Below, piece by piece: positions 1-23,223 of a stretch of DNA of 30,600 nucleotides (position 1 is the first letter of the stretch; each line of letters opens with the position of its first letter). A program made the position numbers and the translations under genes. Origin of the DNA: a virus; IMG/VR virus record IMGVR_UViG_3300010430_000337, positions 1-30,600 of that record, one strand, 5' to 3'. The notes under the pieces were generated by a model. That model worked only from the letters and a program-made list of their open reading frames with translations, had not been told where the DNA came from and did no database searches.

Positions 1-1318
1 AGACGCGGACTTGATTCGCCGTCGCCTCCCACGATCCGCGCGTCCACGACTTGACCTCGAGCACGTTGTCGACGGTGAACTCGGGTTGCGCTCCGGGCGT
101 GTAGTCGTCGCGGGCGAGCGCGATCTTCCACTTCTTGTCGGACTCGTCGCGGATGAGGACGCCGTCGATCTGCTGTTCCACGCGCTGGACGAGCGCCTCG
201 ATCGCCTCGGGGTTGTCGATCAACATCGAGAACCCGTTCCCCTCGGCCTTGAGCGTGGCCCCCACGGTACGGAAGTTCGCGTCGTCGATCGTCGACGGGT
301 CGAAGCGGAACCCGTCCTTCGCCGTGAGCGCGATGTAGAGGACGTTGACGGGGTTCGCGTCGCCGGAGTTGACGATCTCCCCGCCGGCGGTGAGCGCGAC
401 GGGATTCGGCGTCCGCCGAAGCGTGATCGCCCACGGCTCCGGCGTCGTCGTGTTTCCGACGTAGGCCCGGTTCTCGTAGTTCGTGACGTAGCAGAACCCG
501 CGATAGGCCGGCGTCACGCCGTCTTGACTCTGAAAGCCCGCGCCGAAGGTGAGGTTGAGCGTGCACCCCGAGCCCGGCGAGAGGTCCAGAGTCGCGACCG
601 TCGTCGAGACAGGGTTCGACGGCTTCGTGGAGTAGATCCCGCCAGACAGGAGCGAGACCGTCGCGACGGCATCGGAGACCCCGACCGTATCGACGCGAAA
701 CCGAGCCGCGAATCCGAACGTACCGCCGACGCAGAAGAGCGTGTCCCCGACCGTGTATCCCGTTCCGGCCGCGGCGATCGTTGCGCCGGTGACGATCGCC
801 GAGCCGAGGTAGCTCGACGGGGATTGAGTGTTCGAGCCCGCGAAGAACTGGAACGTCCCCTGGACGCCGCCCGTCCCGCCCTCGTCGGGGTCGCCGAAGA
901 GCTGCGGCTTGTCGATCGTGAACGTGCCGCCGGCGGCCACCGAACCGGAGAATGCCTCCTTCTCGCCGATGCGGACCCGGGTGAGCTCGTCGACCGGGTA
1001 CTCCCCTCCGCCGCACAGGAGGAGCTGGAAGCCCATCGCGTAGCGATAGCCGCGGATGATGTCCTCGTCGGAGAGGAGCGAGACCTGCACGGAGTCGACG
1101 ATCGGGTTCGCGCGAAGGTCGCCCCACCACGCGAAGTTCGGCCCTTTGATCTCGACGGTCCCGAAGAGCCACGGGACGACGCGATCTTCGGTCGCGGTGG
1201 GGAACGAGAAGTCTCCGACGCCGGCCGGCTTGAGCTGCTCACGCTTCGGCTTCGGACGGAAGAGCTCGTTGAGGATCGTCGAGAACGCGAAGAGGAAGAC
1301 CGAGTACCAGAACCCCAC
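1..1318 (-). CDS. Tail tip / host-specificity (J-like) protein, 3' part missing
   Basis: An open frame starts with GTG at 1318 and runs to the window edge without a stop (at least 439 residues). The start overlaps the upstream stop by one base (TAGTG) and lies behind AGGGGA. Residues 4-20 are hydrophobic and followed by RPKPK. Then comes a block with DFSFPTATEDRVVPWLFGT and KGPNFAWWGDLR, which I recognise from phage tail-tip proteins that cap the tube and contact the host. Residues about 177-259 are an inserted beta-rich module (542-790), after which the family-like sequence resumes with VTPAYRGFCYV. Position after Dit-like and hub genes fits a central tail-tip protein. The missing C-terminal part would normally carry receptor-binding or fibre-anchoring regions. 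The family assignment rests on motif recall and gene order, not on a search. Confidence 0.8.
   Translation of the reverse strand, partial: MGFWYSVFLFAFSTILNELFRPKPKREQLKPAGVGDFSFPTATEDRVVPWLFGTVEIKGPNFAWWGDLRANPIVDSVQVSLLSDEDIIRGYRYAMGFQLLLCGGGEYPVDELTRVRIGEKEAFSGSVAAGGTFTIDKPQLFGDPDEGGTGGVQGTFQFFAGSNTQSPSSYLGSAIVTGATIAAAGTGYTVGDTLFCVGGTFGFAARFRVDTVGVSDAVATVSLLSGGIYSTKPSNPVSTTVATLDLSPGSGCTLNLTFGAGFQSQDGVTPAYRGFCYVTNYENRAYVGNTTTPEPWAITLRRTPNPVALTAGGEIVNSGDANPVNVLYIALTAKDGFRFDPSTIDDANFRTVGATLKAEGNGFSMLIDNPEAIEALVQRVEQQIDGVLIRDESDKKWKIALARDDYTPGAQPEFTVDNVLEVKSWTRGSWEATANQVRV
542..790 (-). repeat. GGTGY-type inserted domain, copy in the tail-tip protein
   Basis: Residues about 177-259 of the tail-tip protein read IAAAGTGYTVGDTLFCVGG, then a VDTV strand, then GGIYSTKPSNPVSTT and finally GSGCTLNLTF. 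The same order of motifs occurs in three other places in the window. The flanking sequences YLGS and VTPAYRGF look like the two sides of a single family block split by this insert. The copy is more diverged than the others: it has AAGTGY instead of GGTGY and lacks the TTGGGG run. Confidence 0.75.
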
Positions 1319-2136
1319 TAGACGATCCCCTGCTGGTTCGGGTTGATCTTCGGCACGAAGGCGAAGCCGCCGAAGTTGATCGCGTTGTCGAACTTCGAGG
1401 AGCAGACCGCGATCGTGTGCTCGCACCCGGCGAAGACGTTCACGGACGCCGGCGTCGTGCCGAACGGCAGAAGGAGCTCTAGGTCGTTCCCCGAGTGCGA
1501 CAGGACGAGTCGGTAGTCGGTGCCGCCGAGCACCTCGACCATCCCGCCGTCGAACCACCCGTCGGTATAGGTGCCCGAGAGACCGGGCACCGTGAGCGTC
1601 CTCCCCGACTGCCCGCTCGGCGCGAGGGCCGACGCGCGGTAGGCCGGGTCGGAACTCGAAACCGTGCACTGATCGTCGTAGAGGACGCGGTTGCACGAGG
1701 CGCACTGCTTCTCCCGCGGGTAGACGCGGTCCCCCCCGCCGATGCTCTGCCGGCACGACACTTTCGCGACGCGGAGATCGTCGACGAAGGAGACGGTATC
1801 GACGAACCCCTCGAAGATCCGAATCGTCTCGATCGCCGAGTCCGACCGCTGGAACCGATCCACCTCGACCGAGACCCGATTCCCTGGGACGCTCGACTTC
1901 CAGACGTCGGCGAACGCATCGTCGCCGGGGAGCTGGATCTCGAACTTGTTGTTCCGCTCGGCGGGCCCGAAGCGAACGGGTCCCCGCGAGATCGCGCGCG
2001 GGACGTAGGTGAGCGAGTTCGCGACGACCGAGTCCTCGGACGAGGTGTAGAAGTAGGACGTGGCGCCGGAGGTGAAGCGGTAGACCTCGACCGGCCTGCT
2101 GGCCTCGACGGTCTCCTCGTAAGCCGCGTAGGTCAC
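1318..2136 (-). CDS. Tail hub protein, DUF2163 / phage BR0599 family (gene transfer agent gp13-like)
   Basis: A 272-residue protein. I place the start at GTG 2136, where GTGA overlaps the upstream stop and GAGG lies at a proper distance. It also gives the usual family N-terminus (VTYAAYEETVEASRPVEVYRF). A longer GTG start at 2154 is possible. Six cysteines are present: C128, C145, C148, C157, C238 and C245. The C-terminus has CEHTIAVCSSKFDNAINFGG, a hallmark of this family. In gene transfer agents the homologue forms the baseplate hub below the distal tail protein and, as I recall, coordinates an iron-sulphur cluster through conserved cysteines. Between a Dit-like gene and a tail-tip gene the role fits. 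The peptidase gene that follows the hub in gene transfer agents is absent here. Confidence 0.82.
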   Translation of the reverse strand: MTYAAYEETVEASRPVEVYRFTSGATSYFYTSSEDSVVANSLTYVPRAISRGPVRFGPAERNNKFEIQLPGDDAFADVWKSSVPGNRVSVEVDRFQRSDSAIETIRIFEGFVDTVSFVDDLRVAKVSCRQSIGGGDRVYPREKQCASCNRVLYDDQCTVSSSDPAYRASALAPSGQSGRTLTVPGLSGTYTDGWFDGGMVEVLGGTDYRLVLSHSGNDLELLLPFGTTPASVNVFAGCEHTIAVCSSKFDNAINFGGFAFVPKINPNQQGIV

Positions 2137-3869
2137 TCGAAGACACCTCGGCACCCGACGGTGCAGTATTCATCGACCCCGCCGCGCTGGGTTCGAAGCT
2201 CGATCCGGTCCTGGTCGAAGCGCATCTTCTCGACGAACTCGATCCGATCGACGATCGACTGCGAGTAGGACGCGGCCCAGTTCGAATCGACGGTGAGCGT
2301 CTCCTCCGTCGCGTCGATCTCGACCGAGGAGAGCACGGTCCGCAGGACCGCCGGCGTCCCGTCGTTGAACGAGATCCGGATCACGTTCCGCGGCTGGGCG
2401 GCGCCCACGAACCGCGTGTAGCCGTCGTTCCGGACGTTCATCGTCGCCACGCCGGAGGAGATGTCGTCGGTGAGCGTGAGGTCGCTCTTCTTCGTCGGCA
2501 GGTAGAACGAGACCTGCCGACCGCGGAGCGCGTAGAGCACTTGACGAAGCGCCCAGGACGCCGCGCGCCCCTTCGCGAAGAACGTCTTCGGACGAACGGG
2601 CTTGTGGGTCGGCCAGTCCGACGCGACGTAGACGAGGCCGGCGATCGAGTCGAGGTCCGTGACTTCGATGTCGAAGGCCTCGGGTGACGTCGCCCCCTCC
2701 ATTCCGTTGTCGTCGTCGAAGAGCACCTTCGAATTGAAGGACGAGAAGCCCGACGTGTCCGCGAGGTCGGCCTCGTTGTCCGTCACCCGAAACCGAACGG
2801 TGCCAAGGTCGAGCACCGCGTTCGGATAGCGGGCCCCGGAGACGCGCCCCTCGATGACGCACAGGCGCAACGGTGCGACCGTCACGCCGACGGCGTGCGA
2901 GTTCGACGTCGCGCTCGTGAAGGTGATCGTCGACGACGTGAGCGAGTCCACGACGAGCACGTCGAAGGCTCCGGTCGCCTCGTCGATGATGATCGCGTTC
3001 CCGCCGACCCGGAAGTCCCGGTAGTCGGTCGAGCCGACCGTGATCGTCGTGTCGCCGGCGGTGACGGCCGCGGCGACCTCGGTCTCGTGCTTCCAGAACG
3101 GAACCCCGAAGGTGTTCCCCTGCCACGCGAAGAGGACGTTCTGGATCGTCTGGCGCTCGCCGTCCTCGTAGAGCCGGAAGTCGTACTCGAGGAACTGCCG
3201 CGGGCTCTCGCGCATCGACGGCCGCTTCTCCTTCCCGGAGATGGCCGCGTGGATCTGAGTGACCCACTCGAGCACCTCGACGAGCTCGTCGTCGTTCTCC
3301 GGGCGCACGTCGAAGAGGATGATCCGCGTGATCGAGATCGGGATCGAGATCGTCCCCGACGCGAACGCGAAGTCGAGCGTATCGTCGACGACCCCCGGGC
3401 CGACCGTCGAGATCGTGAGCACGAGGTCGACCGTCTGCATCGGGTCGAGGTCCGACGGAAAGCCGGGGAGCGTCGCGAGGTCGACCCCTGCGCCGGCGTT
3501 GCTCGTGTAACCCGTCCAGGAGTGGGTCGCCGTACGGAACGCGGAGTGGACGTCCACGTCGACGAGCTGCGTCGACAGGAGGTTCGGGTACGCGATCGTC
3601 CGCGGGAGGACGTGCACCCGATCGAACCATGCCGGGATCCCGGTTCCGTCCTTCGTCGTCGACGCGTAGCTCCCGAAGGCCTGCACGACCCGCGCCGGCG
3701 CGGCCGTCTGGAGCTCGCCCACGGAGTTCGGCGCCACCGGGAACGCGACCGGAACGATCTCGGGTTCGGCGGGGTTGAGGTAGGCGTCGGACGAGACGCC
3801 CGACTGCTGCCCGAAGATCAGGACCTCGAGCGGGCCGAGGGTTCCAGACGTGCTCGCGAAGCTCGCCAC
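2133..3869 (-). CDS. Distal-tail (Dit)-like baseplate protein
   Basis: A 578-residue protein with GTG start at 3869 behind TAGGA. The N-terminal 200 residues are beta-rich. A central region with EYDFRLYEDGERQTIQNVLFAW followed by GVPFWKHETEV resembles distal tail proteins that form the ring joining tube to hub. The middle has strands typical of phage tail proteins (TAGDTTITVGSTDYRDF, GGNAIIIDEATGAFDVLVV). No catalytic motif is visible. The stop overlaps the hub start as GTGA, so the two are probably translated in step. Function is inferred mainly from gene order (tape measure, two tail proteins, this gene, hub, tip) and from general resemblance. The protein is larger than a minimal Dit of about 200-300 residues and may include carbohydrate-binding or other extra modules. 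Confidence 0.6.
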   Translation of the reverse strand: MASFASTSGTLGPLEVLIFGQQSGVSSDAYLNPAEPEIVPVAFPVAPNSVGELQTAAPARVVQAFGSYASTTKDGTGIPAWFDRVHVLPRTIAYPNLLSTQLVDVDVHSAFRTATHSWTGYTSNAGAGVDLATLPGFPSDLDPMQTVDLVLTISTVGPGVVDDTLDFAFASGTISIPISITRIILFDVRPENDDELVEVLEWVTQIHAAISGKEKRPSMRESPRQFLEYDFRLYEDGERQTIQNVLFAWQGNTFGVPFWKHETEVAAAVTAGDTTITVGSTDYRDFRVGGNAIIIDEATGAFDVLVVDSLTSSTITFTSATSNSHAVGVTVAPLRLCVIEGRVSGARYPNAVLDLGTVRFRVTDNEADLADTSGFSSFNSKVLFDDDNGMEGATSPEAFDIEVTDLDSIAGLVYVASDWPTHKPVRPKTFFAKGRAASWALRQVLYALRGRQVSFYLPTKKSDLTLTDDISSGVATMNVRNDGYTRFVGAAQPRNVIRISFNDGTPAVLRTVLSSVEIDATEETLTVDSNWAASYSQSIVDRIEFVEKMRFDQDRIELRTQRGGVDEYCTVGCRGVFE

Positions 3870-3878
3870 GGCGGCATC

Positions 3879-4916
3879 CTACGCCGTGACCTTCTTGTAG
3901 GCGATCCCCTGGTAGTACGTCCGCCAGTCGAGGAGCGCGGTCCCCCGGCGGCCCGCGGGGAAGACGACGTAGGTGTCCGCCCCGAGCGTGATCTCCTGCC
4001 CCGGCGTGAGGTTGTGCATCGAGATCCCGAGCACGTCGGGGAGCTGGCCCAGCGGGTAGGCGAACGAGTTCGTCGCGTCGACGTAGACCGGCTCGATCGC
4101 GTACGTCGGGAGGAACCCGGTCGTCGGGTCGACGACGAAGTTCCCGAGGTGGGGCGCCACGATCCCGGCGCGGAACCCGCCGGAGCAAACCTGCTTGTCT
4201 TCGCCGGCGGAATCGGTCCAGTTCGCCGAGTTCGTCATCGACGTCAAGCCGCAGACCTGGAGCCATTTCTCGCTTCCGCCCTGCCCCGGGAGGCTCTCGG
4301 CGTGGATCGTCGCGCACCGTCGCGCCGTCGCGCTGGAGATCGCGTTGAGCCCGTCGAGGAGGACCGAGTGCCCCGTGCTCACGCCGGTCGCGGTGAGCCC
4401 CGACGTCCCCGTCGCGTGGTAATGGCCGTAGCAGTATTCGCCGCCCGTCCAGTCGTTGAACTTGTCGAGCGTCCCGAACCCGAAGTGCCGGTAGACGTCG
4501 GTCTCCTGCTGCACGACGACGTGAATGTAGGCCGGGCTCGAGTCCTTCTCGAAGAAGTGGTAGCTCGGGTAGGGACCGTCGCCCAGGTCGTTGACGCATC
4601 GCTCGTCGTCGAGGCTCGCGTCGGCGTAGGGGCTCGCGCCGTTGTAGCCGTTGCCCGAGTCGTCGGTGTGATCGCCTGGATCGGTGCTCGTGTTGATGAA
4701 GCCGAGCGCCTGATGGAGGCTCATGTGATTCGGCGAGTCGGCGGCGTACTTCATCGAGACGTAAACGTCGCCCTTCGAGAGCGCGAAGATCCCCTCCGTC
4801 GAGACGGTTACGCCGTCGTCGATATGATCCTCCGTCCAGCCGTTCGCGACCGCGAACGTCGAGAGCTTCGACAGGAGATCCCCCATCCCGGAGGCGGTCG
4901 ACGTTTCGTAGGCCAT
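3879..4916 (-). CDS. Tail structural protein, uninterrupted paralogue of its upstream neighbour
   Basis: A 345-residue protein with ATG at 4916 and a strong GGAGG nine bases upstream, inside the end of the preceding gene. The N-terminus (TASGMGDLLSKLSTFAVANGWTEDH in two parts: helix, then NGWT) is common in phage tail-region proteins of unknown function. Three blocks match the upstream protein at 4921-6549: the N-terminal helix; RHFGFGTLDKF...GGEYCYG against NHFQGYLGFLDQ...NDEYAYP; and the C-terminal YVVFPAGRR...DW against YRIFTNGNRTQDW. I infer gene duplication. No enzyme motif or signal peptide is seen. It probably is a virion component near the tail tip, but its exact place is not known. 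Confidence 0.55.
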   Translation of the reverse strand: MAYETSTASGMGDLLSKLSTFAVANGWTEDHIDDGVTVSTEGIFALSKGDVYVSMKYAADSPNHMSLHQALGFINTSTDPGDHTDDSGNGYNGASPYADASLDDERCVNDLGDGPYPSYHFFEKDSSPAYIHVVVQQETDVYRHFGFGTLDKFNDWTGGEYCYGHYHATGTSGLTATGVSTGHSVLLDGLNAISSATARRCATIHAESLPGQGGSEKWLQVCGLTSMTNSANWTDSAGEDKQVCSGGFRAGIVAPHLGNFVVDPTTGFLPTYAIEPVYVDATNSFAYPLGQLPDVLGISMHNLTPGQEITLGADTYVVFPAGRRGTALLDWRTYYQGIAYKKVTA

Positions 4917-4920
4917 CGTC

Positions 4921-6549
4921 TCAGTCCTCCGCGATGCAGAAGTAGGACCAGTCCTGAGTCCGGTTCCCGTTCGTGAAGATGCGGTAGCGGTCGTCGCCGT
5001 CGGTGAGACGATCGAGCGCGACGATCGAACTCCCGCCGCGTGCGAACCAGAAGACGCCGCCGAGCTCGCCGGTGAGGTAGTAGTCGTTCCCCGTGATCGG
5101 GGTTTCCTGGCGGAACGGGATCACCGGACGGCGAAGGTACTCGTCCGCGGTGCCGGGCGACGGCTTGAGCACGAAGGAGGCCGTGCCGGGGACGCCGGAC
5201 GTCGGGACGACGTCCTTCATGCCGAAGCCCGTGTTCGCCACCATCGCGTCGGGTTCCGAGGTGTTCGGGATCGTGAGCGACGCGAGCGGGAAGACCCCGA
5301 ACTCGGTCTCGCTCGTACGCACCGACGCGGAGTTCGAGAGCGCGGCGGCGTGCGCGATCCACGAGCCGTCCGGGTGACGGACGAGGAAGGCGCCGGCCGG
5401 GTCGATCGCCGTCGACTGAGTCGGAATCGGCTCGACGATCCCGCCGAGGAGCACGCTCGACTCGTTGTAGAGCGCGTCGTCCCCCGAGACGCCGGACGCG
5501 ACGCAGAGAGGGTAGGCGTACTCGTCGTTCGTGCCGACCTGATCGAGGAAGCCGAGGTAGCCCTGGAAGTGATTGAACTGGACGCCGTCGTCGACCGCGC
5601 ACGAGAAGACGATCCGGCGGCCGTTGACGTTCGCATACCACGAGATGTCATCGCCGCTCGAGTCCTTGAGCGGGACGAAGGCGCCGTTCCCGTCGTCGGT
5701 CTCGCCTTCGTTGCCGACGGACGTGAGGAGCCCCGGCGAGATGCCGGGCTGCTCCTCGATCGTGAGCCCCGAGTTGAAGCCCGTGAAGCCGAGGAGGCAG
5801 AAGTTCCACGCGGTATCGAACCCGACGGTGAGCTCGTACGCCTTGATCCCGACGTAGATGTCGTCGGTGCCCGACAGGCCCGTCCCGTTGAGGATGAGGA
5901 CGCGCTCCTGGGTCGTCGCGTCCTGCCACGTCACGTTGAGCGTGCACCCCGACCCGCCGCCTCCCGTCGTCGCGATCGGGTTCGGCGTCGGCTCCTCCTC
6001 GTAGTTGCCGGCGGTGTCGACCGAGACGGCCGTCACGACGCCCCCGGAAACGGTGTCGACGTTGAAGATCGTCGCCGTCCCGCCCTCGCCGATGAGCCCA
6101 CCGACGAGCGTGAGCTTGTCGCTCACGGAGTAGCCGGTCCCGCCCGCGCCGATGGTCGCGCTCGCGGCCTCCTGGGACTCGCGCAGGACGCTCCAGTCCG
6201 CCGACGCGATCGTCGTCGTGATCGTGCACCCGGTCCCCGTCACTGAGGCGCCGGTGTCGACGTTCGTCTCGCCGGTGGTCGTCGCGCTCGTGCCCGGGTT
6301 CACCGTGTAGGCGCCGCCCCGGTAGATCCGCACCGTCGAGACGGCGCCGGTCGACACGGTGAGCACCTCGGCGGCTGCCGTGTGCCCCCCGACCGTGGTC
6401 CCGCCGTCGATCGCGAGGACGTCCCCGACCGCGTAGCCCGATCCCCCGGCCGTCACCGCGAGCGAGTCGACCCGCGAGTTCGTCATGACCTGCTTGAGGT
6501 CCTCGAGGAGCGCGAGGTAGCCGGCCGCCGTTCCTTCCTGCCACGTCAT
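4921..6549 (-). CDS. Tail structural protein with two inserted GGTGY domains
   Basis: A 542-residue protein starting at ATG 6549 in an ATGA overlap with the tape-measure stop. Residues 1-27 form a short helix (TAAGYLALLEDLKQVM). Two copies of the GGTGY module follow: residues about 30-114 and 130-208. The short stretch ADWSVLRESQEA stands between them. The remaining 330 residues are paralogous to the downstream 345-residue protein. That paralogue has neither module; its sequence passes directly from the helix through NGWTEDH to GDVYVSMKYA, matching TDDIYVGIKAY here. The core is therefore a tail protein and the modules are later insertions. The core's role is not known; its position right after the tape measure suggests a tail-tip or tail-surface component. 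Confidence 0.6.
   Translation of the reverse strand: MTWQEGTAAGYLALLEDLKQVMTNSRVDSLAVTAGGSGYAVGDVLAIDGGTTVGGHTAAAEVLTVSTGAVSTVRIYRGGAYTVNPGTSATTTGETNVDTGASVTGTGCTITTTIASADWSVLRESQEAASATIGAGGTGYSVSDKLTLVGGLIGEGGTATIFNVDTVSGGVVTAVSVDTAGNYEEEPTPNPIATTGGGGSGCTLNVTWQDATTQERVLILNGTGLSGTDDIYVGIKAYELTVGFDTAWNFCLLGFTGFNSGLTIEEQPGISPGLLTSVGNEGETDDGNGAFVPLKDSSGDDISWYANVNGRRIVFSCAVDDGVQFNHFQGYLGFLDQVGTNDEYAYPLCVASGVSGDDALYNESSVLLGGIVEPIPTQSTAIDPAGAFLVRHPDGSWIAHAAALSNSASVRTSETEFGVFPLASLTIPNTSEPDAMVANTGFGMKDVVPTSGVPGTASFVLKPSPGTADEYLRRPVIPFRQETPITGNDYYLTGELGGVFWFARGGSSIVALDRLTDGDDRYRIFTNGNRTQDWSYFCIAED
5926..6162 (-). repeat. GGTGY-type inserted domain, second copy in the tail protein
   Basis: Residues about 130-208 show the full signature: GAGGTGYSVSDKLTLVGG, then VDTVSGGVVTAVSV, GNYEEEPTPNPIATTGGGG and SGCTLNVTW. 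It is the closest of the copies to the one in the connector gene at 18979-19203, sharing GGTGYxVxDxLTLxGG, VSGGVVTxV and TTGGGGSxCTLxVT. Confidence 0.8.
6208..6462 (-). repeat. GGTGY-type inserted domain, first copy in the tail protein
   Basis: Residues about 30-114 show VTAGGSGYAVGDVLAIDGG, a TVSTGAVSTVRIYRGGAY segment and end with GTGCTITTTI. Relative to copy two it lacks the TTGGGG run but has the same order of glycine turns and strands. Confidence 0.78.
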
Positions 6550-9341
6550 GTCGCCAGAGTACCCCTCAGGGCCTCCCGATTCTCCTGGGCGTTCGAGAGC
6601 TGGGCCTCCTGGCCGTCCCTGGACCGCATGACGTCGAGGACGCGGCTCGGGTCGTCCACGACGACGACCTGCGCCGGCGGGACGGTCACGTTCACTTGCG
6701 GGGCGGGCTGCGGGCCGGCGTTCAGGAGCGCGGCCGTGCGGCCTGCCGGGACGATGGTCCCGGGCTGGTCGGGGACGAAGAGCTCGGCCCCGCCCTCGCC
6801 GACGACGGCCGGCTCGCCGACGGGCGGTCGACCGCCCTCGGCGAAGAATCCCGAAATGAATCCCCCGATGTCGAACCCACCCCCACCCCCTCCGCCTCCG
6901 GGTCCGCCCTGCTCACCGAAGAGCGAAAGGAGGAGTTGGTTCGTCGCGAGCTCGAGGAGCGAGTCGAGGATCGACTCGACGAAACGGTCCGCGTTGAACT
7001 CGCCGGACTTGAAGAAGTCGAGGAGCGCCGCCTTGCCCTCGTTGAACGCGTCGACCGTCGCGCCCTGCACGAAGCCCGAGACGTCCTCGAGCCCGAGGCG
7101 GATCTCGGCGAGCCCGCCCTTCACGCCCCCCGTCTGCGCCGTGAGCTCGAGTTGCGCGCGGTTGTATTCGTCGACCGAGATCGCGCCGGCGGCCCACAGG
7201 GCGTTCAGGTCCGCCTGCAGCGCCATGATCTCCTTCATCGGGTCCTGCACCGCGCGAAGGAGCTCGATCTGGCGCTCGGTGAGCTTGTTCTGCCCGGAGA
7301 GGGCGGAGTCGTCGGACGGGGCGGACGCGGCGGCGACAGCGCCCGCCCCCCCGGCGTCCGACGACCCCGCGAAGGCATCGGCCGGCCCCGCGAGCGAGAC
7401 GCCGACGAGTGCGGCGGCAGCGACGGAGGCGGCCTGCTTCGCGGCGGCGGCGAAGGCCGCGCCGACGCGCTCGCCCTCGATCGCCGCGAGCTTCTCGTTG
7501 AAGTCGCCCTCGAGGTCGAGGAAGGCCCGGAGCGCGTCCCCGCCCTCGAGCCCGCGGAACCCCTCGAAGAGGTTCGCCGCGGCGTCCTTCCCGATGTCGA
7601 GCGCCGCGCCGACGTAGTCCCGTCCGAAGTTCTCGCGGAAGTCGGTCGTCACCCCGTCGAACGCGCTCGAGAGGTCGGCGGACGACGCGAGCAGGAGTCG
7701 GCGCGCGCTCTCGATCGGGCTCGACAGGTCGAAGTCCGCGATCGCCGTGAGCTGGTCCCGGGCGAGCGTGAAGAAGCGCGAGATCGCCTGCCCGATCGAG
7801 AGGAAGAGTCCGATCGTCGAGTTCGCGAAGGCCTTCGTCGCGGCGCCGGCGTCGTCGATCGAGCCGACGTAGTTGTCGAGGAAGAAGCTCGCGAGGACGG
7901 AGACGGCCTCCCCGATCTCGTTGAGCGCAAGCCGCACCCCCGGGCCGAAGACCTGGACGGCGAAGCGGACGCCGTCCCGGAAGAGGTCGAAGAGGAACGA
8001 CACCCGCTCGGAGACGAGGTCGAACGCGGCCTGCAGGACGTCCCCGACCCGGACGCCCCCGACCTCGAGGTTCGCGATCTCCTCCCGGAAGGCGATGAGC
8101 GCCCCGATCGAGCCGGCGAGGAGCGCCGGGAGGAGCGTGATCGGGTTCGTGAGGAGCGCCACGGCGAGCGACCCGAGGGCCGGGATGACGACCCCGACGA
8201 TCGTCCCGATCGCGAGGGCCTGGGCGACCTTCGCCGTCGTGTCGATGTTCTCGGTGAGGAACCGGAGGCCGGAGGCTAGGGAGCGGGCGCCCTCCTCGAG
8301 GAGGTCGAGCCCCCCCGACTTGCCGAGGCTCAGGATGAGCCCCTCGTAGGCGCTGCGGACCGCCAGGAGCGCCCCGTTGAGGTTGTCGTCCATGATGGCC
8401 GCGATCCGGTCCGCGGCCCCCTCGGCGCCCTCCAAGTTCGCCACGAGGCCGGGGAGATCGTCCGCCTGCCCGGTGAGCGCCAGGAACGCCGTAGCGGCCG
8501 AGTTCTCGAGGAGGTCGAAGACGTTGGACGCGTCGACCCCGGCGTCCCGGAGCTCCTGCAGGGCGGGCAGGAGGCCGCCGGCGGCGGTGATCGAGAACTC
8601 GTCCGCATTCCGCCCCGAGAGTTCCAGGACCTCGGCGAGCTTCTCCCCGGGCGACTGGAGCTCCGCGAAGATCGCCCGGAGCCCCCGGCCCGCGAGGCCC
8701 GCCTTGATGCCGGCGTTCGCGAGCCCCTGGACCGCGGCCGCGGTCTCCTCGAGCGAAACTCCCAGGCCAGCGGCGACCGGCGCGACGAACTTGAGCGCCT
8801 CGCCGAAGCCCCGAACGTCGGTGTTCGCCGAGTTCGCGCCGAGGGCGAGCACGTCGACCACCCGCGAGATCTCCGCGACCTCGAGCCCGAAGCCCGTGAG
8901 GACGTTCGTCGCGATGTCGGCGGCCGAGGAGAGCTCCAGAGCGCCGGCCTGCGCGAGCTTGAGCGTCCCCTCGACCGACCCGAAGACCTCGTTCGCGTCG
9001 AAACCCGCACGCGCGAGCTCGACCATCCCCTGCGCGGCCTGAGACGCCGAGAAGCGCGTCGTCGTGCCGAGGTCGAGCGCCCGCTGCTCGAGGGCGGCGA
9101 ACTCGTCCCCCGTCGCCTGGGAGATCGCCTGGACCGTCGACATCTCCTGGGAGAAGTCAGCGAGGAGGCGGACGCTCGAGGTGAGCCCCGCCGTGATCCC
9201 GGCCGCGGCGAAGGCGGCGACGAGCGTCGAGCGGAGGCTGGTCGCCCGCCGCTCGACGCCGCCGAGGCTCCGCTCGACCTTCTGCGCGCCGGCCTGGGCC
9301 TTGCGCGGGTCGACGACGACCTCGATCCGGAACTTCGCCAC
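6546..9341 (-). CDS. Tail tape-measure protein (TP901-type core)
   Basis: A 931-residue protein with GTG at 9341, directly after the TAG of the GT chaperone frame, with GGAGG about 11 bases upstream. The N-terminus MAKFRIEVVVDPRKAQAG and the alanine-rich helical region about 60-330 (ADFSQEMSTVQAISQATG, ALDLGTTTRFSASQAAQGM) match the phage tape-measure TP901 core family. A long hydrophobic stretch at residues about 377-418 could enter the host membrane on DNA ejection. A glycine run (PGGGGGGGGFD) lies near the C-terminus. The protein sets tail length and plugs the tube. By the usual rule of about 0.15 nm per residue it would specify a tail near 140 nm; that figure is only an estimate. Location after G/GT is the classical one. 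Confidence 0.95.
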   Translation of the reverse strand: MAKFRIEVVVDPRKAQAGAQKVERSLGGVERRATSLRSTLVAAFAAAGITAGLTSSVRLLADFSQEMSTVQAISQATGDEFAALEQRALDLGTTTRFSASQAAQGMVELARAGFDANEVFGSVEGTLKLAQAGALELSSAADIATNVLTGFGLEVAEISRVVDVLALGANSANTDVRGFGEALKFVAPVAAGLGVSLEETAAAVQGLANAGIKAGLAGRGLRAIFAELQSPGEKLAEVLELSGRNADEFSITAAGGLLPALQELRDAGVDASNVFDLLENSAATAFLALTGQADDLPGLVANLEGAEGAADRIAAIMDDNLNGALLAVRSAYEGLILSLGKSGGLDLLEEGARSLASGLRFLTENIDTTAKVAQALAIGTIVGVVIPALGSLAVALLTNPITLLPALLAGSIGALIAFREEIANLEVGGVRVGDVLQAAFDLVSERVSFLFDLFRDGVRFAVQVFGPGVRLALNEIGEAVSVLASFFLDNYVGSIDDAGAATKAFANSTIGLFLSIGQAISRFFTLARDQLTAIADFDLSSPIESARRLLLASSADLSSAFDGVTTDFRENFGRDYVGAALDIGKDAAANLFEGFRGLEGGDALRAFLDLEGDFNEKLAAIEGERVGAAFAAAAKQAASVAAAALVGVSLAGPADAFAGSSDAGGAGAVAAASAPSDDSALSGQNKLTERQIELLRAVQDPMKEIMALQADLNALWAAGAISVDEYNRAQLELTAQTGGVKGGLAEIRLGLEDVSGFVQGATVDAFNEGKAALLDFFKSGEFNADRFVESILDSLLELATNQLLLSLFGEQGGPGGGGGGGGFDIGGFISGFFAEGGRPPVGEPAVVGEGGAELFVPDQPGTIVPAGRTAALLNAGPQPAPQVNVTVPPAQVVVVDDPSRVLDVMRSRDGQEAQLSNAQENREALRGTLAT

Positions 9342-10252: not shown

Positions 10253-10286
10253 TCGTAGCTCCTTCGGCCGGTTCGCCGGAACGGGT

Positions 10287-10323: not shown

Positions 10324-10372
10324 GTCATGATGGCAACCCGGGGCGGGCGAATGGAAGGGGCTGGGCCCCGGA

Positions 10373-11998
10373 TCAGGCGGCCGCGCTCGTCGGCGTGACG
10401 GGGAAGACGCTCAGGCTGAGAGTCTGCGAGAACGTGTCGCCCTCGTAGGCCTCGCCCGTAAGGCTCAGGTTGATCGACTCGTTCACAGGGAAGTCCTTCG
10501 CCCCGTCGCCGAGCGTCATCGACGGCAGGTCCCAGGCGAGCGCGCCGTCCTCGTTCTCGTGGATAAACTCCATCGTGACCTCGGTGTTCCCGCGGATCCG
10601 CGCGACGACCGTCGGACTCGTGAAGAGGACGGTCGCCTCGACGTCGACGAGGAAGTTCCCCGCGTTGAGGTACTTGTTCCCCTCGTAGCACTGGACCTTC
10701 TCGCCGCTGACCTCGTTGTCGATCGTGAGGCTCCAGTCCTTGAAGTCGGTCGTGAGGCCGGTCTCGTCGATGTCCGTGATCCGCAGGCGGGCGCACTGCG
10801 TCGACGTATTGAACGGCGCCGTGAGGAGCGGCGAGATCGGCGTCGTCGCGTTCGTCTTCCGCGACGCGTTGTCGACGATCGTCTCGATCCGCGAGCCGAT
10901 GAGCTCCCACGACTGCGTCACCTTGTCGCCCGTTCCGAAGCTCACGCCCCAGACGTCCGTAAGCCCGTTCGTCAGGTACTCGAACCCGTCGGGGCTCGCG
11001 ACCGGCGTCGGCGGCGTGGTCTCGTAGAGGTTGTCGTAGCCGGCCTCGAACTGGTAGTAGCTCTGGCCGTAGTCGGAGTCGTCGACCGCGACGTTCCGGA
11101 TGTAGCGACCGAAGAGGAGGTCGATCGCGAGGTTCGTGCCGCCGGCGTTGTCGTCCGTTCCGTCGAAGGCGACGAGCGCCGGGCGCAGGCGGTCCGGGTC
11201 GGAGTTGCCCGGGTCGAGCTTGTCGAGCGTGAGGGATCCGGCGGCGATCGCCGTGACGCGCGCGAACCCGTAGGTCGGCGTCGACGCGGCGCTCGCGGGC
11301 TGGTTCGTGCTCGTCGTGCCGCCGACGTGGATCATCTGGCCGACGGTGAGGCCGAGCGTCGTGAAGTCGATGTTGTTCGTCGCCGAGTTGTTTCCCGACG
11401 TGAGGGTCCCGACGCCGGAGGAGACCGTCATCGCGAGATCGCCGTCCTCGGCGCGGATCCCGCAGAGAGAGACCATCGCGTTCGTCGGGGCAGTCTCCGC
11501 GGAGTTGCCCGAGACCGTGATCGTCGTCCCCGAGCTCGCGAGGTCCGCGGTGAGCGCCTTGAGCCCGTTGTTCGCGGTGGTCGCGTAGCCCTTCGCGTAG
11601 ACGAGGGTCGCCATCCCGCCGGAGACCCACTGGAACTTCGCGGCCTGGGCCGCGGTCGCAGCCGGAACCGTGTACCCGGAGCTCGTCGCGTCGACGCCCT
11701 CGAAGACGGTGTCGGCGTTGACGAAGGACGAGAAGAACGCCCCGGGCGCGCGGTCCAGGACCGCGGAGATCGTGTAGTCGTCCTCGAAGGAGACGGCCGG
11801 GTTCGTGTCGACGACCGCGCCCTTCCGGCGCGAGCGGCGCTTCGAGATCGGGTTCCGCGCGACCTTATCGTTCGGCGAGTTGAAGACGATCGAGCCGTTC
11901 GGCTCGACCTCGTACCACGTCGGGGACCCGCCGAGGGTGTCGAGCGAGCTCTGTACCGCGTACTGGAGCCCGAAGTTGTTCGTGAGTGAGCGTCCCAT
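10373..11998 (-). CDS. Major tail tube protein
   Basis: A 541-residue protein. The start is ATG at 11998, overlapping the upstream stop as TAATG, behind a strong GAGGAG. The open frame extends further upstream but that part is out of place. The N-terminus (MGRSLTNNFGLQYAVQSSLD), followed by VARNPISKRRSRRKGAVVD and SFEDDYTISAVLD, matches a siphophage tube family I know from proteobacterial phages. It polymerises into hexameric rings around the tape measure. At 541 residues it is clearly larger than lambda-type tubes (about 250). The middle (LASSGTTITVSGNSAETAPTN and following) and the C-terminal 140 residues are beta-rich and may include Ig-like decorations on the tube surface; that is inference. 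Confidence 0.85.
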   Translation of the reverse strand: MGRSLTNNFGLQYAVQSSLDTLGGSPTWYEVEPNGSIVFNSPNDKVARNPISKRRSRRKGAVVDTNPAVSFEDDYTISAVLDRAPGAFFSSFVNADTVFEGVDATSSGYTVPAATAAQAAKFQWVSGGMATLVYAKGYATTANNGLKALTADLASSGTTITVSGNSAETAPTNAMVSLCGIRAEDGDLAMTVSSGVGTLTSGNNSATNNIDFTTLGLTVGQMIHVGGTTSTNQPASAASTPTYGFARVTAIAAGSLTLDKLDPGNSDPDRLRPALVAFDGTDDNAGGTNLAIDLLFGRYIRNVAVDDSDYGQSYYQFEAGYDNLYETTPPTPVASPDGFEYLTNGLTDVWGVSFGTGDKVTQSWELIGSRIETIVDNASRKTNATTPISPLLTAPFNTSTQCARLRITDIDETGLTTDFKDWSLTIDNEVSGEKVQCYEGNKYLNAGNFLVDVEATVLFTSPTVVARIRGNTEVTMEFIHENEDGALAWDLPSMTLGDGAKDFPVNESINLSLTGEAYEGDTFSQTLSLSVFPVTPTSAAA

Positions 11999-12426
11999 TA
12001 CTTGATCTCCTCGTGGAAGAACTCTGCGCGAACGGCACGCGAGATCCACTCGCCGTCCTCGTCCACCGAAAGAATCTGAATGCCCTTCGTGAAGTGGCAT
12101 CCGGTGATCGTCTTGCCCTCGAAGACCGCGCGGGCTTGGCGAGCCATCTCGACGGCGGGGCGCGCGCCCTGGTCGGCGCCCGAAATCTGCGCCGGGTAGA
12201 AGCACTCGATCAGGAGCACGCGGTCGCGGAGGTAGCGCCGATTCCCGGGCTTGCCCTGCGTGTCCTGGGCCGAGTCGTCTTCGAGCAGGCGAAGCGAGTA
12301 GTACGGAGTGCCCTTCGTCGGCGTGAACTTCTCGCCCTCGAGAACGGTCGCGTAGGCGTCGGCCTTGTTCGCGAGCCAGTAGGCGACGACCGTGTCGTCG
12401 GCCTCGGTGATCGTGCGCGTCGTCAT
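11998..12426 (-). CDS. Tail terminator / tail completion-like protein
   Basis: A 142-residue protein, ATG at 12426 in an ATGA overlap with the upstream gene. It has an N-terminal helix (YWLANKADAYATVLEG) and beta strands (RRYLRDRVLLIECFYPAQ, ISRAVRAEFFHEEIK) in the alpha-beta-beta order typical of gpU-like terminators that cap the tail tube and join it to the neck. It lies between an HK97 gp10-like gene and the tube gene, the usual place of a terminator. No strong sequence motif proves the family; context carries most of the weight. Confidence 0.6.
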   Translation of the reverse strand: MTTRTITEADDTVVAYWLANKADAYATVLEGEKFTPTKGTPYYSLRLLEDDSAQDTQGKPGNRRYLRDRVLLIECFYPAQISGADQGARPAVEMARQARAVFEGKTITGCHFTKGIQILSVDEDGEWISRAVRAEFFHEEIK

Positions 12427-12899: not shown

Positions 12900-12926
12900 G
12901 CCGCCGCGGGCCCCCGCGCGGGGACC

Positions 12927-13427: not shown

Positions 13428-13479
13428 CTGGCGGGCTCCGAAGAGAGAGGACGTGAAGAGAGAGAACCGACGGCGCGGC

Positions 13480-14478
13480 CTAGCTGACCGCGTCGAGGAA
13501 GAAGTAGCCGAGGTCGGCCGAGACGAGCTTCTGGTCCCAGGCGCCCTCGATCTCGTGCCGGTCGGAGTTCAGGTGCTCCATCCGGAAGCGGCGGATCCGG
13601 GTGCCGAGCGTGCCGGCGCCGAAGCGGCCCGTCCACGCGAAGGTGTAGCCGGCGGCCGGCGTCATCCGACCGGGCGTCGCCGGGCGGTAGAAGAGGAGCG
13701 CGTTCTTGCCGCCGATGAAGGCGTTCGACTCGGTCGCTCCCTTGTTCGCGGAGTTCTTGATCGCGTCGAGGACGAGCACCTCCTCGACCTCGAAGAGCGC
13801 CGCGAGCTGCTGGCGGTTCGTCATCGCCGGGCCGGACGTCTGGCCGCGGTCGAGGCGCCCGATGATGTCGGGATGGTCGAGGAGCGAGTCGTAGACCTCG
13901 GTCCCGCAGGCGAAGACGTTCGGGCGGAGGCCGCCCGAGAGCTTCGTCGCGGTGCGGCCCGCGCGGACGCGCTCGATGGGATCCGAGTCGGCTCGATCCC
14001 ACCGGCCGAACTGGCCCGCGGTCGGCGACGCGGAGTCGACGCCCGTGACCTCGTTCGTCCAGATGCTCGTCACGAAGAAGTTCGCGGCCCACTCGACGTC
14101 CTTCCGGAGAAGGGCCTTCATCGAGAGGTACTGAGTCGCCTGCTCCTCGAGGTTCTCGACGGCGGGGTCCGCGTTGTCGCGGATCGAGTCCGCGATGTCC
14201 CGGTGGAACGCGTACTCGTCGCAGAAGAAGCTCGGCGAGTTGTCGATGGTGTAGGTGCCGCCCGCGGACTCGGTCCCGGGGGCACGCTTCGCCATCTCGT
14301 CGCGGTTGAACTCGCCGCGCTCGAAGAGGAAGTAGCGGTCCGACCGCTTGCCGGCGCGGACAATGCGGAAGGCTCGATCGGCGACGAAACCCTCCTCCTC
14401 TTGCTGGAACGCGACCGAGAGGTCGGTGAGCGCGGAGTCGACGTGGAGGTCGCCGGCACTCGGTTCGTTGTAGGGCAT
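13480..14478 (-). CDS. Major capsid protein (HK97-fold type)
   Basis: A 332-residue protein, ATG at 14478 with GGGAG eight bases upstream. Blocks I know from a widespread major capsid family are present: SDRYFLFERGEFNRDEMAKR, then CDEYAFHRDIADSIRDNAD, LEEQATQYLSMKALLRKDVEW, FVTSIWT and near the end HEIEGAWDQKLVSADLGYFF. It follows the protease, scaffold and decoration genes, the normal order for head morphogenesis. It assembles into the icosahedral shell. The N-terminal 35 residues contain no obvious cleaved delta domain, which agrees with a separate scaffold gene upstream. Confidence 0.88.
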   Translation of the reverse strand: MPYNEPSAGDLHVDSALTDLSVAFQQEEEGFVADRAFRIVRAGKRSDRYFLFERGEFNRDEMAKRAPGTESAGGTYTIDNSPSFFCDEYAFHRDIADSIRDNADPAVENLEEQATQYLSMKALLRKDVEWAANFFVTSIWTNEVTGVDSASPTAGQFGRWDRADSDPIERVRAGRTATKLSGGLRPNVFACGTEVYDSLLDHPDIIGRLDRGQTSGPAMTNRQQLAALFEVEEVLVLDAIKNSANKGATESNAFIGGKNALLFYRPATPGRMTPAAGYTFAWTGRFGAGTLGTRIRRFRMEHLNSDRHEIEGAWDQKLVSADLGYFFLDAVS

Positions 14479-14541
14479 CTGGTAGCTCCCTGGGTGGTTC
14501 TTGGGTTCGTCGTCGAAGCTGGAATTGGCCGGGGCGATGCC

Positions 14542-14928: not shown

Positions 14929-14981
14929 CGTGGATTTACCTTCGGGGTCTCGGGTCGGTGGTAGTGGTTCGAGCGGCGGCG

Positions 14982-16468: not shown

Positions 16469-16476
16469 GGGGCGTC

Positions 16477-17106
16477 CTAGCTCGTGACGTTTCCGACGTC
16501 GACGAAGAAGAGGTCGATCGTGCCCGAGACCGTGAGCGCGTCGTCGGCCGTGATCGAGGCGGCGGCGTTGAGGTAGAGCGCGGCGGACGCGCCGTCGGCC
16601 AGGAGGATCGGGTACGAGAGCGTCCCGTCGGCCGAGGAGTGGATCTGGAACGCCGGCGAAGCGTCGGTCGCGGTGAGCGCGATCCCGGTGATCACGTCGA
16701 CCATCGCCCCGGAGAGCGTCGAGTTCGACGCGACCGCAGTCCCGATCGCGACCGTGACGTCCGTCGCGGCCTCGAGGCCGTTCGTCACCTCGCCCTTCAC
16801 GAGCTCGAGGTCGGCCTCGACGGCGAGGAGGACGAGGTTCTCGTCCGGGAGGTCGCAGAGCTTCGTCCCGCCGTAGTCGTCGGCCTCGGCGACCGAGACC
16901 GTGAAGCCTGAGAGCGTGAGGCGGACGTGCCGCGGCATCCGGACGCGATCGAAGGTCGTCGCGACGTTCGTGTTCGGCGTGACGGTCGAGCCGGCCGCGC
17001 TGGATCCCGCGATCAGGTTCCCGTCGCCGATCGTGAGCGTCGCCGCGTCGCCCGAGAGCTCGACCGGACCCGTGAAAACCTGCTCCTGCCTGTTCTTCTG
17101 CGTCAT
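16477..17106 (-). CDS. Virion structural protein, beta-rich, function unknown
   Basis: A 209-residue protein with ATG at 17106; GGAG occurs both 3 and about 11 bases upstream. It is almost free of helices by eye: GPVELSGDAATLTIGDGNLI, HVRLTLSGFTVSVAEADD, and a conserved-looking C-terminal strand GTIDLFFVDVGNV. Proteins with this end motif occur in head gene clusters of other phages as minor structural proteins. It lies between the MuF gene and the protease gene. The 111-base gap upstream (17107-17217) has no gene; it holds only a short GCGCT-CGA-AGCGC inverted repeat (17133-17145) and a G/C tract. Confidence 0.6.
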   Translation of the reverse strand: MTQKNRQEQVFTGPVELSGDAATLTIGDGNLIAGSSAAGSTVTPNTNVATTFDRVRMPRHVRLTLSGFTVSVAEADDYGGTKLCDLPDENLVLLAVEADLELVKGEVTNGLEAATDVTVAIGTAVASNSTLSGAMVDVITGIALTATDASPAFQIHSSADGTLSYPILLADGASAALYLNAAASITADDALTVSGTIDLFFVDVGNVTS

Positions 17107-17217
17107 GGTCTCCGGATCTCCGTGGGGGGATGGCGCTCGAAGCGCGCTCTCGACGTCGGAATCCTGGAGGCCCCGCGGGGGGCGTTCAACGATTTCTCAA
17201 GTCGAAACCCGGACGCG

Positions 17218-18183
17218 TCACGACGTCACGCGGGTCCCGACGCGGCACCGACACTTGATCCGGTCGTAGGGCGGGGCCGACGGATCGCCGGGAAATCGTA
17301 GCTCGTTGCCCGCTCCGGACGTGAAGGGCTCGTTCGGCTTGCGAATCTGGCCGTGCATCGAGGCGTGCGACGTCGGCCCGTCGTCGAAGTCGCGAACGCG
17401 CTCGTCGTCGGCCGTGTTCCACGTCCGCTCGACCTGCTCCGGTCGGATGGACCCCGTCGCGAGCGACTGGCGGAAGGCCTCGTCGACGCCCTCGTGCACC
17501 GCCGAGAGAGACTCGGTCCGGGCGATCGTCTCCGCCCGGAACTTCCGCCACCGATCCCGGTAGCGGCCGACCATCTTGTCGATCTGGGCGCGAGGGAGCC
17601 CCGACTCGGCCGCGATCGCCCGGCGAACCGTCCGGTCGAACCGCTTGTCCCGGAGCTTCCGGCCGAGCGCCCGCGAATCGAGGGCCTCGAGCTCGCGCCG
17701 GTAGTTCTGGACCCACTTCTCCTGCAGGGGCGTGAGGCCGATCGAGTCCCGGAAGTTCCGAGCCTGGGCGATCGGGTTGAGGCCCCGGCGGAGGCCGTCG
17801 GCGAGGGCAAGCCGCGTCGCCTCCCGCTGCTGCCGGGTGAACGAGCGAATCACCTCGAGCCGCGCGTTCGTCATCTTCGAGACCGCGACCGGGTTCGTCC
17901 CGTCGAACGAGACGACGATCCCGAGCGCCTCGGCGAGCTCGTCGAGCACGCGCTCCCCCGAAGCCGAGAACGTGAGCGTCACCGACGACGCGAGCCGAGC
18001 CGCGGCCGCGGACAGCACGTCGAGCGCGTCGTCGAACCGGCCCGCGACGATGAGCTCCGCGAGCTCCGCGAGCGTCCGCTCCCGCTGGATCTGGAGCACG
18101 ACGTCCGCGAAGCGCCGGCGGATGCGCGACTCCGAGGCGGAGACGAGGAAGCCGATCGTGCCGAGCGAGTCGTAGGACGTCAC
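17218..18183 (-). CDS. Minor head protein, MuF / SPP1 gp7-like head morphogenesis
   Basis: A 321-residue protein from GTG 18183, three bases after the upstream stop, with GGGAG ten bases upstream. The N-terminal 200 residues are helical. The C-terminal domain has ETIARTESLSAVHEGVDEAF, RTWNTADDERVRD, then HASMHGQ and ending PPYDRIKCRCRVGTRV. This is the MuF-type pattern (aromatic/threonine in the WNTADDERVRD block, histidine in the SHASMHGQ block, CRC at the end). The family binds the portal on the inside of the head and may help DNA delivery. It normally follows the portal gene directly, but here lies 7.5 kb further on. Confidence 0.85.
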   Translation of the reverse strand: MTSYDSLGTIGFLVSASESRIRRRFADVVLQIQRERTLAELAELIVAGRFDDALDVLSAAAARLASSVTLTFSASGERVLDELAEALGIVVSFDGTNPVAVSKMTNARLEVIRSFTRQQREATRLALADGLRRGLNPIAQARNFRDSIGLTPLQEKWVQNYRRELEALDSRALGRKLRDKRFDRTVRRAIAAESGLPRAQIDKMVGRYRDRWRKFRAETIARTESLSAVHEGVDEAFRQSLATGSIRPEQVERTWNTADDERVRDFDDGPTSHASMHGQIRKPNEPFTSGAGNELRFPGDPSAPPYDRIKCRCRVGTRVTS

Positions 18184-18186
18184 GCG

Positions 18187-18579
18187 CTACGACTCCCGGC
18201 ACTGGCACACGAAGAGCGCCCGCGCCGGATCCGTCTGGACGCCGCCCTCGACGATCGTGAGGACTTCCGACTCCCCGTCGACGACCTCGACGCGGGCCCC
18301 GGGCTGCGGTGCACCGGCCGGCGAGATGGTCCCGCCGAGGATCGAGACGCGGCGGTCTCCCCGCTGGATCTGGGTCCCGTCGATCTGCCGGTCGGTGTAG
18401 TCGTCGACGAACCCCTTCGCGGTGAACGTCGTCGCGCTGGTCGAGATGCCGGCGGTCGGCTGGGTCGCGCTGCGGGTGCCGCGCGTGTAGTTCGTGAACG
18501 TCACGTCGAGGACGCCGCCGGCCGCGGAGATGCCCGAGGCGACCTCCTTCGCGATGTCGATCCCGAAGAGCTTCACCAC
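18187..18579 (-). CDS. Small head-tail joining-like protein
   Basis: A 130-residue protein starting at one of two adjacent GTG codons (18579 or 18576) with GGAG eight bases before. It contains IDIAKEVASGISAAGGVLDVTF, then a beta-rich part with DDYTDRQIDGTQIQRGDRRVSILGG, a pattern like small stopper or neck proteins that close the portal channel. It stands between the connector gene and the MuF gene. The C-terminus ends in CQCRES. Function is inferred from gene order and size. Confidence 0.55.
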   Translation of the reverse strand: MVKLFGIDIAKEVASGISAAGGVLDVTFTNYTRGTRSATQPTAGISTSATTFTAKGFVDDYTDRQIDGTQIQRGDRRVSILGGTISPAGAPQPGARVEVVDGESEVLTIVEGGVQTDPARALFVCQCRES

Positions 18580-18585
18580 GGCGCG

Positions 18586-19404
18586 CTACTCCGTGATCTC
18601 GTAGGCGTCGCCGTCCGCGAGGCACGACGCGTTGTTCGCGGTCGTGTCGCTCTCGGTCCAGGTCCCGCCCGAACCGATCCCGACGCTCGACTCGTAGAAG
18701 CACCCGACGAGGCGCTCGACGCTCGCCGGGAAGAGCGTGTTCTGCGCGGACGAACTCCCGGCCGTCTGGCGGAAGAACTCCACGCGCGCGGAACCAGCGC
18801 CGACCGCCTTCACGTTGGAGCCGGTCCCGATCGCGGCCTCGACCTCCACGTCGGCGGCGATCTCGGCCGCGTACTCGAACTGCCCCGACTTGAGGTCGGC
18901 CGGGTACTCGTCGCCGGCGACGGCGTCGCCCTGGCAGTCCGTCAACCCGGTCCGCGGGAAGTCGGACGTCTGGTCCTGGAACGTCACCGTGAGCGTGCAC
19001 GAAGACCCGCCGCCCCCGGTCGTGCTCGCCGGCGAACTCGGGGCGACGGAGTAGAGACCGACGTCCGCGATCGTGACGGAGGTCACGACGCCGCCCGAAA
19101 CCGCGGCGACCGTCACCTTCGCCGCCTGGGTCGACGTGCCGCCCGCGAGCGTGAGCTCGTCGTTCACGGCGTATCCCGTGCCGCCGGCGGCGACCGCGAC
19201 CGTCGCGAGCGTGCTCAGGGCTGCATTCGTGCCGCTGGCCGCGCGCTGCTCCATCCGACGGAAGGCGGAGATCAGGGCCCGCCGCTTCGCGTCGTCGCCG
19301 TACCCGACCCATGTGTCGGCCCACCGCGCGCTCTCGTCGAGGTAGGCGTTCGCCTCGGCAAGCGTGCCGTAGGAGTTCGTTCCGACGATGAGGTTGACGG
19401 CCAT
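18586..19404 (-). CDS. Head-tail connector (gp6-like adaptor) with an inserted GGTGY domain
   Basis: A 272-residue protein, ATG at 19404. The N-terminal 55 residues (NSYGTLAEANAYLDESARWA, then KRRALISAFRRMEQRA) match the start of connector or DnaT-like neck proteins, whose usual length is about 150-190. In those the helix is followed closely by a FPRxG motif; here SDFPRTGLTDCQGD comes only at residue 148. Between them residues about 68-142 are the GGTGY module. After it the adaptor sequence continues with YPADLKSGQFEYAAEIA and an ERLVGCFY block. The protein should form the ring below the portal. The insertion would stand out from the neck. The ribosome-binding site is weak, so it may rely on coupling to the gene before it. 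Confidence 0.7.
   Translation of the reverse strand: MAVNLIVGTNSYGTLAEANAYLDESARWADTWVGYGDDAKRRALISAFRRMEQRAASGTNAALSTLATVAVAAGGTGYAVNDELTLAGGTSTQAAKVTVAAVSGGVVTSVTIADVGLYSVAPSSPASTTGGGGSSCTLTVTFQDQTSDFPRTGLTDCQGDAVAGDEYPADLKSGQFEYAAEIAADVEVEAAIGTGSNVKAVGAGSARVEFFRQTAGSSSAQNTLFPASVERLVGCFYESSVGIGSGGTWTESDTTANNASCLADGDAYEITE
18979..19203 (-). repeat. GGTGY-type inserted domain, copy in the connector
   Basis: Residues about 68-142 read VAAGGTGYAVNDELTLAGG, AAVSGGVVTSVTIADVGLYS and TTGGGGSSCTLTVTFQD. Similarity to the second copy in the tail protein (5926-6162) extends over the whole module, in a protein of different fold and location. Confidence 0.8.
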
Positions 19405-21561: not shown

Positions 21562-21580
21562 GCGCGGCGCTCCCCCTCGA

Positions 21581-23219: not shown

Positions 23220-23223
23220 CGGA

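Follow-up and report, generated by a model that had tools for sequence, protein, structure and literature searches.

What has carried the same short segment into three unrelated proteins of a single phage particle? The question is raised by IMG/VR virus record IMGVR_UViG_3300010430_000337, the whole of which (30,600 bases, hereafter the window) was analyzed, and which carries a siphovirus-type structural module with its genes on the minus strand. Four related segments, referred to here as copies of the GGTGY domain, are located in a baseplate hub protein, in a tail-fibre subunit (two copies) and in the head-tail adaptor Ad1. The explanation preferred here, with a probability of roughly 0.6, is that the four segments are one autonomous all-beta accessory domain, a probable remote relative of domain I of gp18, the tail sheath protein of T4; it has been spread by recombination and is exposed on the virion, where it serves weak adhesion or the docking of fibres.

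The Ad1 copy, used as a query against the complete record, matched exactly four places, all on the minus strand: itself (18979-19203), 5926-6156 (E 1.7e-16, 53% identity), 545-781 (E 3e-10) and 6262-6462 (E 3e-6). A family profile of 70 rows recovered the same four places with E-values from 1e-28 to 3e-19. The copies so delimited by hidden Markov model occupy 542-787 in the hub (E 3.7e-24, match 542-784), 6205-6465 and 5923-6162 as the first and second members of a tandem pair at the N-terminus of the fibre subunit (E 3.1e-19, match 6208-6465, and E 1.5e-28, respectively), and 18976-19203 in Ad1 (E 1.1e-28). They are the four copies recognized in a preliminary description of this DNA, which had been made from the sequence alone and whose main points were confirmed. 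The domain is about 76 residues long, and the two fibre copies measure about 80 and 87 residues. Pairwise amino-acid identity between the copies is 41-53%, and since the corresponding Z-scores reach 8-17 against shuffled sequences, chance similarity is excluded. The similarity extends over the full length, in agreement with the common order of motifs described earlier, although the first motif is not uniform and reads GGTGY, GGSGY or AAGTGY, depending on the copy. Together, the four-place search, the profile E-values and the Z-scores rule out chance or convergence as the source of the likeness.

The three host proteins are unrelated to one another, and all belong to the virion, as had been proposed. 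The hub, similar to tip attachment protein J, is encoded at 2-1318 (minus strand; GTG start at 1318), where the end of the record cuts the gene; it matches phrog_1101 (E 8e-70) and, by phmmer, 8vjh_A (E 3.5e-14) and the hub of phage JBD30 (8rk3_o, E 4.8e-12). The second host, designated earlier simply as a tail protein, proved to be a tail-fibre subunit (4921-6549, minus strand), in which phrog_687 is matched at residues 208-541 (E 8e-19). A profile of this fibre family matched JBD30 chain 8rk3_c (E 3.4e-15), which is taken as the fibre subunit on the basis of gene order and of the paper on phage Lydia, where JBD30 entry 8rk5 is the counterpart used in comparing this fibre pair. Ad1 itself (18586-19404, minus strand) is identified by PF20557 (E 1.5e-12) and phrog_477 (E 8.6e-21). 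Two contigs from two other metagenomes (L090 and L112) match window positions 1-8940 at 99.3% identity, which rules out an assembly artefact for the copies in the hub and fibre; the stretch covered by these contigs does not include the Ad1 copy.

For all three host proteins, relatives were found that lack the domain at the matching site. The hub matches 448 phage records, and the best among the matches listed align in two pieces that flank the domain and skip it. In the window, the hub reads YLGS, then about 88 residues, then FQSQDGVTPAYRG, while the empty site of Birtae, phage 73, Pan1 and VCLv21 reads, for example, YLSGKIGAGDVPAYRG. In three nearer relatives, G022, G024 and G003, the site is YLDAFQLEGGDTPAYRG, YLSTYQQQGGDTPAYRG and YLSTYQTPHTSAYRP, respectively; compared with these, the hub of the window has lost nothing of the host protein. 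At the matching site of Ad1, the window reads SGTN, then the domain, then FQDQTSDFPRTG, and in phages RDJL Phi 1 and 2 the sequence is AGTKTGTEVSQPNKFPRTN or almost identical to it. The Ad1 protein of phage S0112 likewise lacks the domain, and in seven Ad1 relatives the alignment is confined to the parts outside it. The junctions at which the segments were said to split their hosts, between YLGS and VTPAYRGF in the hub and between RMEQRA and FPRTG in Ad1, are thus exactly those at which the homologues are empty. In the case of the fibre, the protein of phage TehO has 324 residues with neither an N-terminal extension nor a domain, and the N-terminal region is different in phages M6 and VPv64. 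An empty control is also present within the window itself: a second phrog_687 paralogue (3879-4916, minus strand; E 1.5e-39, from residue 1) in which no domain match was found. These two adjacent paralogues, only one of which carries the domain, resemble the gp47/gp48 heterodimer that forms part of the lateral tail fibre in JBD30.

The possibility that a mobile element had inserted the segments and left target repeats was considered and rejected, as a scan of the junctions yielded short, imperfect coding repeats, none of which convincingly bracketed the inserts. A 23-base repeat (83%) at 5914-5936 and 6529-6551 flanks the tandem pair and encodes TWQ followed by D or E; it may be due to chance or may be a trace of the joining of the pair.

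When the Ad1 copy was modelled alone with the family alignment, AlphaFold2 predicted an eight-strand all-beta domain with a mean predicted local distance difference test score (pLDDT) of 97.1 and a predicted template modelling score of 0.84. The whole-fibre model was poor (mean pLDDT 50) and was used for the second domain only; residues 120-220, which contain that copy, were nevertheless confident and displayed the same strand order. According to these models, the domain folds autonomously. The stand-alone prediction, the unrelated hosts and the empty sites agree with the earlier proposal of a mobile, beta-rich domain. An opposing view is that the segments are integral to each host fold and came to resemble one another by convergence on glycine-rich beta-hairpins. 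The composition is indeed rich in glycine and threonine, and in a tblastn search one copy alone matched nothing in the phage collection, probably owing to the low-complexity filter. Such an origin is nonetheless incompatible with full-length collinear similarity at the Z-scores given above, with clean empty sites, with a confident stand-alone fold and with the occupation of two different sites in one tail tube family (described below). It is very improbable in general and is refuted for these four copies: the fold is predicted to be autonomous, and homologues that lack the segment exist.

The history of the copies was reconstructed from three related records (G003, G022 and G024) with recognizable tape measure, tube, fibre and hub genes. 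The tandem pair of the fibre subunit is present in all three of these records and the hub domain in none, while the Ad1 domain is absent from both records in which an Ad1 homologue was found (G022 and G024). In a tree of 61 domain copies, the first fibre copies group with the first copies of other phages (100/98) and the second with the second copies of five other phages (97/83). Since the pair is shared by position among relatives in which the hub site and, where an Ad1 homologue was found, the Ad1 site are empty, the sequence comparisons indicate that the tandem fibre pair is ancestral and vertically inherited, and that the hub and Ad1 copies are lineage-specific and later. The latter two may have come from other phages.

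This history leaves little room for a recent duplication of all four copies inside this phage, which is considered improbable. Some of the data are in its favour: the Ad1 and second fibre copies share 69% DNA identity over 246 bases (measured on contigs that are 99% identical), holding these two together in the tree was not rejected (p 0.16), and a within-genome pair is present in another record, G010. The fibre copies, however, cluster by position with those of other phages, and a tree uniting the four copies of the window in one clade was rejected by the approximately unbiased test (p = 0.0146). Moreover, DNA identity between the copies is only 54-66%, so they are not recent duplicates. A single recent burst of four copies is rejected on the same two grounds, the tree test and the low DNA identity. 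The preliminary description had envisaged a domain that spreads from one structural gene to another within a single phage. This is not supported as the source of the four copies, in view of the ancestral fibre pair and the rejected single clade; the process itself is represented by the pair in G010, whose copies, in the tube protein and in a phrog_15312 protein, are sisters (99/96) and 66% identical.

Beyond the window, the domain was detected at related loci in more than 10 virion protein families. In addition to those already described, the hosts include head closure protein Hc3 (phrog_578), tail sheath (phrog_23), tail protein phrog_457, baseplate wedge phrog_17744, nozzle PF25675, Phage_attach PF05354, tail tube PF18906, DUF4815 and others. 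Particularly clear is the tube family, in which the domain occupies residues 136-209 in G003 and 382-457 in G010, although the two proteins are 60% identical outside it; the tubes of G022, G024 and the window have no domain. With gains and losses this clear, and with insertion at two sites of one tube protein, the spread of the domain becomes measurable. In a library of predicted structures, the same fold (TM 0.89-0.93) was found in further proteins of uncultured phages, one of them annotated as tip attachment protein J. A giant-phage contig of 518,643 bases (L072, genome G040) contained 14 matches to the domain, spread over at least five proteins, and is a candidate for within-genome amplification.

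The profiles of four PHROGs, phrog_9703 (head decoration), phrog_32129, phrog_6005 and phrog_26741, include the domain and match all or most of the copies. These PHROGs are clusters of whole proteins, and the label "head decoration" does not describe the domain itself. Three of them (phrog_9703, phrog_32129 and phrog_6005) match the inserted domain alone, and the label can therefore pass wrongly to hub, fibre and adaptor proteins; recognition of the domain explains wrong annotations of this kind. In the open-licence literature, no paper was found on this family across virion proteins or on a named GGTGY domain, and the part of Evseev 2022 available, which concerns additional domains of sheath proteins, contained no cross-protein link.

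The only plausible relative of solved structure was found in the tail sheath of T4-type phages. In the PDB, the matches of the family profile below E 0.01 were confined to tail sheaths of T4 type, where they covered gp18 residues 101-183; the best, by hmmsearch, was to 3fo8 (E 3.3e-4). Domain I of gp18 comprises residues 98-188 (PMC3004832). As the profile contained at least one sheath copy (from L037), the search was repeated with 18 copies from non-sheath proteins. With E-values up to 10 admitted, only two matches were then obtained, both of them to the same residues of gp18 sheaths and both weak (E 0.43 and 0.51). Profile-profile alignment by hhalign against ten gp18 domain-I sequences gave P 2.2e-6 for the sheath-free profile and 1.3e-7 for the full one, versus 0.69 for an unrelated phage profile used as a negative control. 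The L037 sheath matches T4 gp18 at E 2e-97, and its strong GGTGY copy is collinear with gp18 94-185, the slot of domain I. The GGTGY domain is thus a probable remote homologue of gp18 domain I, rather than a member of PF22639.

Domain I of T4 gp18 projects outward from the sheath and takes no part in contacts between sheath subunits. Its binding partners are the baseplate and the long tail fibres in their retracted state, and the substitutions G106S, S175F and A178V inhibit fibre retraction (PMC3004832). These three residues fit the gp18 sequence only when the first methionine is not counted. G106 then maps to profile position 8, a glycine in 70 of the 70 copies, and S175 and A178 to positions 65 and 68; the mutated positions thus correspond to the GGTGY turn and the GTG-C/A-T turn.

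Several results weigh against the favoured explanation. The Gp18_dom_I family (PF22639) has a cut-off of 27 bits, which was exceeded in none of 12 records (best score, 20 bits), and none of the four copies in the window scores at all. In Foldseek searches of the PDB, gp18 ranked first, with non-significant E-values of 1.9-4 and TM values of 0.45-0.58. The alignment of the domain and gp18 profiles extends no further than columns 45-54, and the placing of S175 and A178 therefore depends on a single hmmsearch alignment. Finally, the best-conserved positions of the profile are mostly glycines and turn residues, the others being variable, a pattern as compatible with a structural scaffold as with a binding face.

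This conservation pattern is also what would be expected if the domain were an inert spacer or solubility module, i.e., a neutral, stable beta-knob tolerated harmlessly in exposed loops, retained for its good folding and having no specific ligand. The sheath, tube, hub, adaptor, nozzle and wedge hosts share no binding task, and the additional domains of the T4 sheath are described as nonessential for sheath formation (PMC9230969). A neutral module would, however, hardly account for the retention of the tandem fibre pair in all the related phages found, or for the phenotype of the T4 point mutations in domain I, and this interpretation is judged unlikely, though by no means far-fetched.

In another interpretation, each copy would serve as a socket for a further part of the virion rather than for a host ligand, as does T4 gp18 domain I with the retracted fibres and the baseplate. 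The three T4 mutations map to the two conserved turns, and the copies of the window are located on the fibre, hub and neck, where fibres or whiskers can attach. Most of the hosts, in contrast, are proteins of siphovirus or podovirus type without T4-like retractable fibres, and docking as the general role is judged unlikely.

The favoured explanation, in which an accessory domain exposed on the virion serves weak adhesion or docking, draws its support from the T4 domain-I mutants, from the fibre of JBD30, which binds the type IV pilus (PMC11445458; PMC11946847), and from the M6-type phages, in which an F5/8 type C galactose-binding domain takes the same N-terminal slot of the fibre. The last of these lends indirect support to glycan binding, which by analogy may be a property of the GGTGY domain; no mention of galactose or carbohydrate was found in the full text of the Lydia paper. 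In mechanistic terms, the domain would insert into loops or join the ends of unrelated virion proteins, leaving the host fold undisturbed, and would have spread by recombination among the structural genes of many tailed phages over a long timescale. In this lineage, the old tandem pair on the lateral tail-fibre subunit was followed by single insertions, one into the hub and one into the neck adaptor. Given the exposure of domain I in T4, the copies are presumably displayed on the outside of this virion, on the fibre, baseplate and neck, where the two conserved turns or the adjoining variable loops might make weak contacts with their putative ligands, polymers of the host surface or the environment. 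Alternatively, they could dock the phage's own fibres, as in T4. A bolder and distinctly tentative extension is that tailed phages share a general mobile "socket" domain, represented in the T4 sheath by gp18 domain I, whose two conserved turns dock fibres or host polymers, and whose transfer gives any virion protein, from neck to hub, a new attachment point.

The remaining genes of the module that are named here are all on the minus strand. They encode the terminase (27356-28897), portal (25763-27322), protease (22284-23453), major head protein (13480-14478), tail terminator (11998-12426), tail tube protein (10373-11998; without the domain, unlike the homologous tubes of G003 and G010) and tape measure (6546-9341), together with tail assembly proteins. 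Adjoining Ad1 is a protein of 744 residues (19408-21642), which contains some ten degenerate repeats of the form GTGAGSLPPLEGTGTGDASLAGTG and, after them, a charged repeat, RDEILDVLAERGG, and for which no match was found in Pfam or PHROG.

Accessory domains of phage virions have been described mostly as immunoglobulin (Ig)-like, and such domains reportedly occur in phage structural proteins (Fraser et al. 2006, cited in PMC10684548). The GGTGY domain constitutes a separate family, distributed over more than 10 unrelated virion families. The earlier comparison with Ig-like domains is apt in its logic, both being promiscuous beta-domains on unrelated virion proteins that are present or absent among close relatives. 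As to identity, no Ig-like family exceeded its cut-off (Big_6, 14.5 bits versus 27.6) and no Ig fold occurred among the 14 PDB fold matches; an Ig-like identity was accordingly rejected, gp18 domain I being the better relative.

A second comparison is provided by the F5/8 type C domain (PF22633), which scores over its cut-off at the N-terminus of the M6 fibre protein PPM6_gp032 (L099, 274-1803). It shares with the GGTGY domain the N-terminal slot and the fibre family, but belongs to a different fold family with known galactose-binding members and has no sequence relation to GGTGY. Closest is T4 gp18 domain I (PF22639; PDB 3fo8 and 3foa), the best and almost the sole PDB match of the family: this beta-barrel domain of about 90 residues is, like the GGTGY domain, inserted in its host protein and has the turn G-[ST]-x-Y-x-V-G-D. 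It differs in an extra segment of about 9-10 residues and a helix. In the literature found, moreover, the T4 domain is described in sheath proteins only, whereas the GGTGY family extends to hub, fibre, adaptor, tube, nozzle and other proteins, and none of the window copies resides in a sheath protein. The link to gp18 domain I nevertheless supplies a solved reference structure for the family, and the old T4 fibre-retraction mutants offer a direct test of its function.

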